Assembly (NCBI GenBank): GCA_021791615.1
Contig: JAJYWG010000370.1
Span: 1-16,762 of the forward strand
Source: Actinomycetes bacterium
GTDB taxonomy: Bacteria > Actinomycetota > Acidimicrobiia > Acidimicrobiales > RAAP-2
Reading direction: 5' to 3'
Length of the DNA: 16,762 nucleotides
The translations under genes and the position numbers were made by a program. This document shows, in pieces, positions 8,154 to 9,870 of this stretch; position 1 is the first letter of the stretch, and each line of letters opens with the position of its first letter. The notes under the pieces were generated by a model. It was given only the letters and a program-made list of their open reading frames with translations, made no database searches and was not told the DNA's origin.

Positions 8154-8914
8154 CGCGCCGGCCGGAAGGTGTGGCCGAAGCAGGCCGAGTACACATGGCT
8201 GGTCGCGGGAACGTCGACATCGGCCAGAGCGTCTCCGACCAGGATCATCACGCTGGTGCGCTTCCCCAGTACGAAGAGGTCGTCGGCCAGGCGGCCGAGG
8301 GTGGAGCGGCGGACGATCTCCTCTGGCCAACTCACCTTATACCCGATGACGACAGGCGTCGCGGTGGTGTACGCCGAGCCTTCGCACAACAGCTCCTGTG
8401 CCAGCGCGTCGGGGTCGCCGGCCGACAGGTACAGCGCCATGGTGGCTCCTCGGCGGGCCAAGGCGGACAGCGATTCGTAATCGGGGACCGACGCCGCCGT
8501 GCGCCGGGCCAGACGCGTGAGCACCACGGTCTGTGCCACCCCGGGGACCGTAAGCTCCCGGCCCACCGCGGCGGCGGTGGCGGACACCGAGGACACCCCG
8601 GGCACGATCTCGTAGGGCCGTCCGTTGGCCCGGCACCAGTCGATCTGCTCGGCGACGGCGCTGTAGACGGTGGGATCACCGGAATGGAGCCTGACGACGG
8701 CGTCGTCGGGGTAGGCGGCGAAGACTCCGACGATCTCGTCGAGCGTCATGTACGACGAGTCGAAGAGGACGACCCCTGGCCGGCAACGGTCCAACAGGGA
8801 TGCCGCCACCAGCGAGCCAGCCCACACGACTACGTCTGCTTGGGCGAGGCGGTCCGCGGCTCGGATCGTGATCAGGTCGGGAGCCCCCGGTCCTGCACCG
8901 ACGAAGGAGATCAC
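8150..8914 (-). CDS. cobM: Precorrin-4 C11-methyltransferase
   Basis: SAM-dependent methyltransferase that adds the C-11 methyl group to precorrin-4. The 254-aa product begins VISFVGAGPGAPDLITIRAA, the standard N-terminus of the family. It then shows VVWAGSLV, VVRLHSGDPTVYSAVAEQ (SAM-binding GDP motif), YEIVPGVSSVSATAAA, and near the C-terminus VIGYKVSWPEE and SHVYSACFGHTFR, all CobM/CbiF-like. The GTG at 8914 is chosen because it places that motif at the N-terminus and overlaps the preceding stop as GTGA. The open frame farther upstream (to 9013) is unlikely to be translated. Confidence 0.95.
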   Translation of the reverse strand: MISFVGAGPGAPDLITIRAADRLAQADVVVWAGSLVAASLLDRCRPGVVLFDSSYMTLDEIVGVFAAYPDDAVVRLHSGDPTVYSAVAEQIDWCRANGRPYEIVPGVSSVSATAAAVGRELTVPGVAQTVVLTRLARRTAASVPDYESLSALARRGATMALYLSAGDPDALAQELLCEGSAYTTATPVVIGYKVSWPEEIVRRSTLGRLADDLFVLGKRTSVMILVGDALADVDVPATSHVYSACFGHTFRPAR

Positions 8915-9870
8915 GCGCCACGCCCCCGAACGGCCGGCGAGCGGCGGGCCGGCACGATGGTGGTGGCCAGGTAGGACCCGGGGCCGGTGGCCAGATCGGC
9001 GAGCGGCAGGCAACGCTCTCCGGGCTGTCCCAGAAGCTCGCCGGCCACAGCGGCGCCAAGCCGGCCACGGCGGGCCAGAGACGCCGCGACCGCTGGCAGC
9101 TCCCGCCCGCCCTTGTAGATGACCACGGTCGAGTCGTCGCGATCGAACAGCGGGTCCAGCTCGGCGGGGTCGTCACCGAGGACCACCACGTTGAGCCGCT
9201 CCTCGTCTTGGGCGACGGTCGTCGACGTCATCGCCGCCAGCTGCTGAAAGGGGAGGATGCCGGGTTCCGTCTCGACGACCGCGCCGTGCTGTAGCGCCTG
9301 CACGGCTTCGGCCAGGGCGGGGAACGACGAGTAGAGGTGCGGGTCGCCAAGGGTGGCGAAGGCGACCAGCTCACCCTGTTGGAGGTGCACGGCGATCCGC
9401 TCGGCGGCCGCGGCCAGGGTCTGTCGCCTGGCTCGGGCGTCAGGACCGACGTGGAGCACCACCCGCTCGACGGCCACACCTGGCGCCGCGGCGTGGACGA
9501 CCGCCTCTGCCCTTCCGGTCGCGTCGTCCGAGATGGACGCGGCGAGCACGAGATCGGCGGCGAGGAGGATCCGACGTGCCCGACCAGTGAGGAGCTCGGG
9601 ATCACCGGGGCCGACACCGACCCCCACGAGGCACGGTCCGCCGGGGATGGGCCGCCGGGATCGCCGCTCGCTGGTGGGGGCGGGGCCGGCGGAGCGGAGG
9701 AAGCTTTCGAGCGCGAGGCGGATCGTGTCGGCCTCGGAGCGACCCGAGCGGGCCGCAGCGACCGAGAGCGCAGCTTTCAGGTCGTCGGGGAGATACACCG
9801 ACGTCTTGCGCATCGTGGATCTCGGCCGACCGGCGCCCCTCCGGCCGACCGTGAGGTCATCGGGTGCCAT
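8911..9870 (-). CDS. Ribbon-helix-helix domain fused to a CobI/CbiL-like tetrapyrrole methyltransferase
   Basis: 319-aa two-domain protein. Residues ~9-19 are basic and AT-hook-like (GRRGAGRPRST). Residues ~20-58 form a CopG-type ribbon-helix-helix DNA-binding domain: beta strand KTSVYLP, then DDLKAALSVAAARSGRS and EADTIRLALESFLRS. Residues ~80-310 are a tetrapyrrole methylase of the precorrin-2 C20-methyltransferase group: LVGVGVGPGDPELLTGRARR, VAFATLGDPHLYSSF and VVETEPGILPFQQLAA. A separate, more typical CobI is encoded at 13699-14439, so this is either a redundant C20 enzyme, a methylase with another target, or a regulator using the fold to sense a substrate. The ATG at 9870 overlaps cobB by 14 bp. 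The ATG at 9813, right at the RHH strand, is an alternative; neither has a good ribosome-binding site. It lies inside the operon between cobB and cobM. Domain calls are good; the function is open. Confidence 0.8.
   Translation of the reverse strand: MAPDDLTVGRRGAGRPRSTMRKTSVYLPDDLKAALSVAAARSGRSEADTIRLALESFLRSAGPAPTSERRSRRPIPGGPCLVGVGVGPGDPELLTGRARRILLAADLVLAASISDDATGRAEAVVHAAAPGVAVERVVLHVGPDARARRQTLAAAAERIAVHLQQGELVAFATLGDPHLYSSFPALAEAVQALQHGAVVETEPGILPFQQLAAMTSTTVAQDEERLNVVVLGDDPAELDPLFDRDDSTVVIYKGGRELPAVAASLARRGRLGAAVAGELLGQPGERCLPLADLATGPGSYLATTIVPARRSPAVRGRGA

Follow-up and report, generated by a model that had tools for sequence, protein, structure and literature searches.

A ribbon-helix-helix domain fused to a CobI/CbiL-like methyltransferase, a candidate enzyme-regulator of vitamin B12 genes in Acidimicrobiales and related Actinomycetota

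Introduction

Why should an enzyme of corrin synthesis carry a DNA-binding domain? The question is raised by contig JAJYWG010000370.1 (assembly GCA_021791615.1) of an Actinomycetes bacterium of the order Acidimicrobiales, which was analysed over its whole length of 16,762 nt and is referred to as the window. Its minus-strand open reading frame (ORF) 8911-9870 joins a CopG-type ribbon-helix-helix (RHH) domain to a methylase domain resembling the C20-methyltransferases CobI and CbiL. An earlier sequence-only reading of this DNA had proposed the fusion and suggested that a DNA-binding methylase couples the state of the pathway to cob transcription. Comparative evidence now supports that suggestion, as paired sequence boxes lie within 300 nt upstream of the gene in 30 of 33 CobI loci with the RHH domain versus 0 of 52 loci without it. 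From these comparisons we consider it likely that the fusion is a PutA-like autogenous enzyme-regulator, most likely a repressor, of B12 genes.

The fusion and its translation start

The ORF is uninterrupted by stops and encodes 319 residues, and Pfam matches both parts in one frame: RHH_1 (PF01402) at residues 23-58 with 25.0 bits, above the gathering cut-off of 20.5, and TP_methylase, a family matched by six proteins of the window, at residues 81-288 with 107 bits. The RHH-methylase fusion is therefore real, and the profile search that had been named as its test found the domain. The best NCBIfam model was cobI_cbiL (TIGR01467, residues 81-307), whose curated cut-off of 163.25 bits was missed by the fusion (147.9) and exceeded by a canonical CobI encoded elsewhere in the window (210.1). 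The AlphaFold model (mean predicted local distance difference test score 88.7) contains both RHH helices (residues 29-42 and 46-60), the RHH strand being absent from the monomer, and the top Foldseek matches were the CbiL structures 8xj3 (E 1.3e-21), 2qbu and 2e0k. The GxGxGP and GDP motifs of the methylase are intact.

In an alignment of 30 rows the mean majority fraction was 0.72 for residues 20-60, 0.46 for the linker (residues 61-80) and 0.69 for residues 81-310. The strand residues K22, S24 and Y26, which in CopG-type structures face the bases, are conserved at 0.97, 0.97 and 1.0, respectively. The window protein and its relative at locus L001 are 81% identical over residues 1-185, and for this one sequence pair the ratio of nonsynonymous to synonymous substitution rates (dN/dS) was about 0.30 for residues 20-60, 0.12 for residues 81-185 and about 2 or above for residues 1-19; by this estimate the RHH domain is under purifying selection. 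The basic stretch GRRGAGRPRST, which the sequence-only reading had placed ahead of the RHH domain, belongs to residues 1-19, where 11 of 19 positions differ from L001, and was rejected as part of the conserved domain. Because these residues are not conserved and many homologues start at M/V-RKTSVYL, translation probably begins at ATG 9813, giving a protein of 300 residues that retains the RHH domain.

Occurrence of the fusion

We inspected the query together with the best 120 of 1038 homologues, 121 sequences that include the window's own protein twice, as P0002 and as the query. A strict N-terminal RHH motif was present in 111; in the remaining 10 the segment was recognised by eye, and the predicted start of two of these (P0043 and P0063) falls inside the RHH strand. 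The architecture is thus found in all 121 sequences listed, and the source names of the relatives, where given, are Acidimicrobiales or Actinomycetota (L001 is from an Actinomycetes bacterium). At E 1e-3 or better the full protein was matched by 58 of 296 genomes of L001's class. A fusion profile was matched at 1e-40 by 98 of 397 genomes of one order, 25 of them from the RHH domain on, and 72 of 396 genomes of the phylum gave matches at 1e-30, three of which (G290, G048 and G040, all known from earlier sampling) extended from the RHH domain on. A search with the RHH part alone (residues 20-66), in which 154 candidates of limited length were scored, returned 34 proteins, all of them CobI fusions.

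The comparisons below are based on 85 CobI loci (the window, L001-L004, L119-L138 and L202-L261). A custom profile detected the RHH domain in 33 of them (43-79 bits), in frame in every case, and in none of the other 52. From the order sample we analysed all 25 genomes in which the match starts at model position 1 or 2, leaving out G452 (match from position 22, with a stop). The 52 RHH-less loci are a subset of the RHH-less matches from the L001 search, the class sample and the order sample, part of these matches having been left out, and three genomes (G339 and G540 with RHH, G402 without) contribute two loci each. Only cob genes were sought in the annotation of the loci, in which CobK labels are unreliable; the common gene order is cobO-cobB-(CobI)-cobM-cobL, with rearrangements.

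Box pairs upstream of RHH-bearing loci

The box was first noticed as a repeated CCCTAC, and pairs were searched for as CCCTAY/RTAGGG cores spaced by 9-14 nt. For RHH-less loci, upstream distances were counted from the start of the methylase domain instead of the start codon, and L004 offers only 152 nt; in L130 letters just upstream of the boxes are masked. The three RHH loci in which no near pair was found are the window, L001 and L128, and the first two carry the boxes farther off, in the cobO/cobG region some 2 kb upstream. When a degenerate score over 20 letters was used, 31 of the 33 RHH loci reached at least 16, the maximum among the 52 RHH-less loci being 15. From 83 half-sites the consensus TRCCCTAYGT was derived, in which the flanking letters outside the search pattern are conserved as well (T 82%, R 100%, G 80%, T 82%). 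Three arrangements, direct with a spacing of 12 (20 pairs) or 11 (8 pairs) and inverted with a spacing of 13 (9 pairs), account for 37 of 44 pairs, leaving 7 others. In all nine loci with a divergent cobG (the window, L001, L119, L121, L133, L218, L219, L220 and L222) an inverted pair is located between both operons; the gene facing cobG is cobB, not cobO, in L133. Two genomes hold two RHH-CobI copies each (L209/L210 in G339, L215/L216 in G540), with box pairs at all four.

We also searched 12 whole genomes, 11 with the fusion and one without (G230), with backward patterns as control. The exact direct pair occurs in 4 of the 12, once each and at the fusion gene. Among the same 12 genomes, 3 contain the exact inverted pair, again once each, upstream of cobG. 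The window's DNA at 11761-11831, which the earlier reading had named as a possible target, holds three such boxes, and among 10 cores in the window spaced pairs are found only at 11791-11821. Single half-sites were discarded as evidence: the window contains 16 matches to TGCCCTACGT with up to two mismatches (13 expected) and 12 matches to CCCTACGT with one mismatch (11.6 expected). The signal is carried only by the spacing of the boxes, single boxes being at chance level.

Position of the boxes relative to predicted promoters

In 27 of the 33 RHH loci a TANNNT box precedes the presumed start codon by 5-10 nt, compared with a mean of 0.45% of sampled positions; the six loci that lack it are the window, L001, L120, L123, L128 and L212. 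In Mycobacterium tuberculosis most primary start sites have TANNNT as their -10 motif, and about a quarter of the genes with a primary start site are leaderless (PMC3898074). In the window the boxes at 11789-11821 lie between and over the predicted -10 boxes of cobO and cobG (Table 1). The boxes are thus predicted to overlap or abut leaderless promoters and, as a protein bound there would cover both promoters, repression is the most likely sign of regulation.

RHH domain and cobalamin riboswitch

The 85 loci were scanned with a covariance model derived from nine cobalamin riboswitches. In 23 of the 52 RHH-less loci, including L127 and L002 from the training set, a riboswitch in the same direction ends 47-77 nt before the methylase domain, whereas the model found none directly before CobI in the 33 RHH loci. 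Directly before CobI, RHH domain and riboswitch are mutually exclusive in this sample. The Rfam gathering score was reached by the near-CobI sites of L127, L002 and L004 and missed by those of L003, L125 and L131. Elsewhere in the RHH loci, riboswitches are located upstream in the opposite direction (11 of 33) or in the same direction at a distance of 1.4-8.6 kb (5 of 33). The window has a riboswitch of its own at 16040-16230 on the plus strand (85 bits), which overlaps the start of a long minus-strand CobK ORF.

Descent of the fusion and origin of the RHH domain

A tree of 107 methylase domains (85 CobI, 15 outgroup and 7 canonical CobI sequences) was calculated by a quick method, the rows of L001 and L210 being short. 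A nine-row clade (support 95) comprises the divergent-cobG loci including the window, one of 22 rows (support 94) most other RHH loci and one of 48 rows (support 87) most RHH-less ones, and the window's canonical CobI falls in a clade separate from the fusion. Three changes are needed on this tree for the RHH label and three for the box-pair label, and the weight of the co-occurrence lies in its retention over long divergence. The RHH-less loci L245 and L248 group with the RHH-bearing L212 (support 91) and have a riboswitch about 2.1-2.4 kb upstream; they are candidates for loss of the RHH domain.

The fused RHH domain resembles the antitoxin VapB26 (5x3t, E 7e-6), and standalone kin that are 55 and 57% identical to it occur in two RHH-less genomes (L262, 248-885, plus strand; L263, 351-1330, minus strand). 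A small ORF follows each of them, a PIN protein in L263 and one that has no Pfam match in L262. Given the likeness to VapB26 and the standalone kin beside a small ORF, which encodes a PIN protein in one of the two cases, it is likely that the RHH domain was captured from a VapB-type antitoxin.

Enzyme or sensor

The sequence-only reading had left three options for the methylase domain, active, redundant or converted to a sensor, and these can now be assigned more closely to lineages. We searched 30 RHH genomes, drafts that may miss pieces, with the window's canonical CobI at E 1e-15. This second CobI, which the sequence-only reading did not mention, has a counterpart in all eight genomes with the divergent-cobG cassette and in none of the other 22, of which 7 gave a match to the fusion itself and 15 gave no match. 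Two of these 22 genomes carry the fusion in two copies. Since no other CobI was found in these 22 genomes, the fusion should be a working enzyme there. In the cluster of L120 a protein with CbiG matches below and a cobJ_cbiH match above the cut-offs adjoins a CbiC/CobH-like protein, and because these neighbours point to the cobalt-early route the fusion of L120 should be a working CbiL.

In the nine cassette loci the equivalent of P111 is changed throughout, but the proline is also absent from 8xj3 and from the canonical CobI. Y180 is replaced by W in five of the nine, though not in the window, T182 is changed in seven (the canonical CobI has S), and K253 is kept in all eight readable rows. 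Mean pairwise identities of RHH and methylase domain were 0.57 and 0.59 for 24 sole-enzyme loci, and 0.76 and 0.52 for five cassette loci (L133, L218, L219, L220 and L222). The methylase thus drifts while the RHH domain stays in five of nine cassette loci, and demotion to a sensor would be seen, if anywhere, in those five.

Proposed mechanism and alternatives

We infer DNA binding and repression from the conserved fusion, the co-occurring boxes and their overlap with promoter-like elements. A CbiL/CobI-type C20-methyltransferase would have captured a VapB-like RHH domain, dimers of which would bind pairs of TRCCCTAYGT boxes 11-13 nt apart, over or beside leaderless promoters. The bound fusion may obstruct RNA polymerase while the enzyme stands idle or is present in surplus, and occupancy of the methylase pocket would alter DNA binding; to judge from the fold, candidate ligands are the substrate (precorrin-2 or cobalt-factor II), S-adenosylmethionine (SAM) and S-adenosylhomocysteine (SAH). 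In most relatives one protein would be both the enzyme of the step and its own regulator, where related genes often carry a cobalamin riboswitch. For the window's lineage we propose that a cobG-cobH-cobI-cobJ cassette brought the second CobI and that the fusion was retained to control both divergent operons, those of cobO and cobG, via the boxes at 11789-11821, while its enzyme role may be in the process of being lost in some cassette lineages. The further-reaching version of this proposal has a protein switch replacing the cobalamin riboswitch: the RHH-bearing methyltransferase would sense early corrin flux through its active site and repress the cob genes and, after arrival of the second CobI, would have been demoted to a pure sensor-regulator in some lineages. 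We regard this version as tentative, its chances falling just short of even.

Several observations speak against the proposal or parts of it. The near pair of L128 is degenerate only (209 nt upstream, 16 of 20 letters, with 60 shuffles reaching at most 14), and an inverted pair is also present in L134, a locus that lacks the RHH domain, where it lies 7.4 kb downstream of CobI. TACCCT -10 boxes are often part of a half-site, so that the TANNNT count is not independent of the motif. When up to two mismatches were allowed in the 12 genomes, matches did not exceed the backward controls except for the inverted pattern in G226 (12 versus 9), and this search seems neither to support nor to rule out a wider regulon. 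The association of RHH domain and boxes rests on one to three independent events: a phylogenetic pair/sign test found one independent pair on well-supported branches and three on all branches, numbers with which significance is unreachable. Of the 23 riboswitches before RHH-less CobI genes 11 score 52-122 bits, and 12 are weak (26-45 bits), yet all are at the same place, and the remaining 29 of the 52 loci have none at that place. As to demotion, the window protein keeps Y180, K253 and GDP, and the mean identities of RHH and methylase domain in the window's four cassette loci (0.62 and 0.59, three pairs) give no sign of methylase drift.

These last points lead to the alternative that the protein of the window's lineage combines full C20-methyltransferase activity with a regulatory role and has undergone no demotion to a sensor, a reading that is quite possible at somewhat less than even chances. 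The window protein has intact SAM-site glycines, GDP, Y180, K253, E278 and Y300 and, as most pocket residues are kept, may still be active as a methylase; the low dN/dS of its methylase part relative to L001 and the lack of drift in its subgroup also favour this reading. The canonical CobI in the same locus argues in the other direction, as do, with the reservations given above, the changes of P111 and Y180 in the cassette loci.

A different explanation would make the boxes the sites of another regulator or a lineage-specific promoter element that co-occurs with the RHH domain by shared ancestry only. So few independent changes connecting the two, and the coincidence of some half-sites with TANNNT boxes, would be in line with it. 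We nevertheless consider it unlikely, since the pairs keep mostly to three arrangements at two different promoters, are confined to RHH-bearing loci when the 300 nt upstream of CobI are considered and, where an exact pair is found, are unique in the genome; moreover, K22, S24 and Y26 are conserved at 97-100%. That the RHH domain is a mere dimerisation module of an ordinary enzyme with no regulatory role is very unlikely, as box pairs and conserved strand residues would be left unexplained and CbiL-type enzymes dimerise without an RHH domain. A precedent for such a module is nonetheless given by PutA, whose dimer formation is mediated by its RHH domain (PMC5293562). Finally, an untranslated or antitoxin-derived remnant in place of a working domain, to which the VapB-like nature of the closest standalone relatives might point, is hardly credible: the RHH domain is in frame in 33 of 33 loci, shows purifying selection in the single pair compared and, in the window, belongs to a gene flanked by cobB and cobM.

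Relation to known systems

Among known systems the principle of trifunctional PutA comes closest, in which an RHH domain is combined with proline dehydrogenase and P5C dehydrogenase and the enzyme acts as repressor of its own operon (PMC5293562). Like the fusion, it carries an N-terminal RHH domain and a metabolic enzyme in one chain, the anatomy of autogenous 'trigger enzymes', but enzyme, pathway and signal differ, and the window's lineage has a second protein able to perform the enzyme step. The fusion may be called PutA-like by anatomy; no kinship with PutA is claimed. The regulator BzdR, the nearest parallel for a later step, contains a helix-turn-helix as DNA-binding domain, unlike the RHH domain of the fusion. 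Its sensor domain derives from a shikimate-kinase-like enzyme, and loss of enzyme activity was essential (PMC3602430). BzdR would thus share with the fusion an enzyme domain turned sensor of a transcription regulator, but it acts in benzoate degradation, and the fusion's relatives should still be enzymes.

The CbiL/CobI structures 8xj3, 2qbu and 2e0k share the methylase fold, the SAM-site, GDP and K residues with the fusion, whereas the matched part of their chains is methylase only and the fusion stays below the TIGR01467 cut-off. VapB antitoxins such as VapB26 are similar to it in the RHH sequence, but in the fusion a methylase follows, and no PIN toxin gene adjoins it in the window. The cobalamin riboswitch (RF00174) holds the corresponding place upstream of cobI in the 23 RHH-less loci, as an RNA sensor of B12 and not a protein; B12 riboswitches are known as negative feedback on B12 synthesis (PMC7689651). 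Searches of the full text of open-licence papers in PMC brought up no description of an RHH-CobI fusion; in PMC3493377 the matching text concerns toxin-antitoxin tables and, separately, cobI.

At one and the same gene a biosynthetic enzyme seems here to stand in for a riboswitch. Its candidate operator is legible in the sequence, and the boxes provide first experiments with a defined DNA target. The range of loci, in which the fusion goes from being the sole enzyme to being a redundant copy that partly drifts, makes the evolution from enzyme to regulator testable in one gene family; if the riboswitch was indeed replaced and the fusion demoted, the stages of this transition would be sampled side by side in living lineages.

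Gene neighbourhood in the window

The features discussed above and the neighbouring cob genes are compiled in Table 1.

Table 1. Positions of the fusion gene, candidate operator boxes, predicted promoter elements and cob genes in the window.
Feature	Position	Strand	Remarks
RHH-CobI/CbiL fusion gene	8911..9813	-	probable start ATG 9813, 300 aa; ORF open to ATG 9870, 319 aa
RHH_1 (CopG-type) DNA-binding domain	9697..9804	-	residues 23-58 of the 319-aa reading; Pfam, alignment, AlphaFold helices
Tetrapyrrole methylase domain, CbiL/CobI-like	9007..9630	-	residues 81-288; Pfam 107 bits; Foldseek CbiL matches
Half-site 1, TACCCTATGT	11789..11798	-	
Half-site 2, TGCCCTACGT	11802..11811	+	inverted pair with half-site 1, core offset 13
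Half-site 3, core (GTAGGG on plus strand)	11816..11821	-	overlaps predicted cobG -10 box
Predicted -10 box of cobO, TAGTGT	11768..11773	-	7 nt before GTG 11760
Predicted -10 box of cobG, TAGGGT	11817..11822	+	9 nt before ATG 11832
cobL (CbiE+CbiT)	6909..8120	-	start approximate; NCBIfam
cobM, precorrin-4 C11-methyltransferase	8153..8920	-	start approximate; NCBIfam
cobB, cobyrinate a,c-diamide synthase	9857..11242	-	directly upstream of fusion gene; Pfam/NCBIfam
cobO/cobA, corrinoid adenosyltransferase	11239..11760	-	first gene of likely fusion-bearing operon; Pfam/NCBIfam
cobG, precorrin-3B synthase-like	11832..13073	+	first of divergent cassette; 227.2 bits, just below cut-off 234.8
cobH, precorrin-8X methylmutase	13070..13702	+	NCBIfam
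Canonical cobI, precorrin-2 C20-methyltransferase	13699..14439	+	second CobI of the window; PRK05990 342 bits, cut-off 271; separate tree clade
cobJ, precorrin-3B C17-methyltransferase	14450..15247	+	NCBIfam

Three further features of the cluster were recorded. BluB (5,6-dimethylbenzimidazole synthase) and CobT are encoded as a single protein of 577 residues at 3224-4957 on the plus strand, BluB scoring 224 bits against a cut-off of 150 and CobT remaining below its cut-off. Also in the B12 cluster, a gene for a histidine phosphatase is broken into two minus-strand ORFs (5143-5412 and 5497-5829), each of which matches PF00300, reflecting either a true break or an assembly error. The edge of the cob cluster, at 35-3111, is occupied by a phage-type integrase (35-1849), an rve transposase-like ORF (1868-2302) and a minus-strand ORF with a helix-turn-helix domain (2803-3111).

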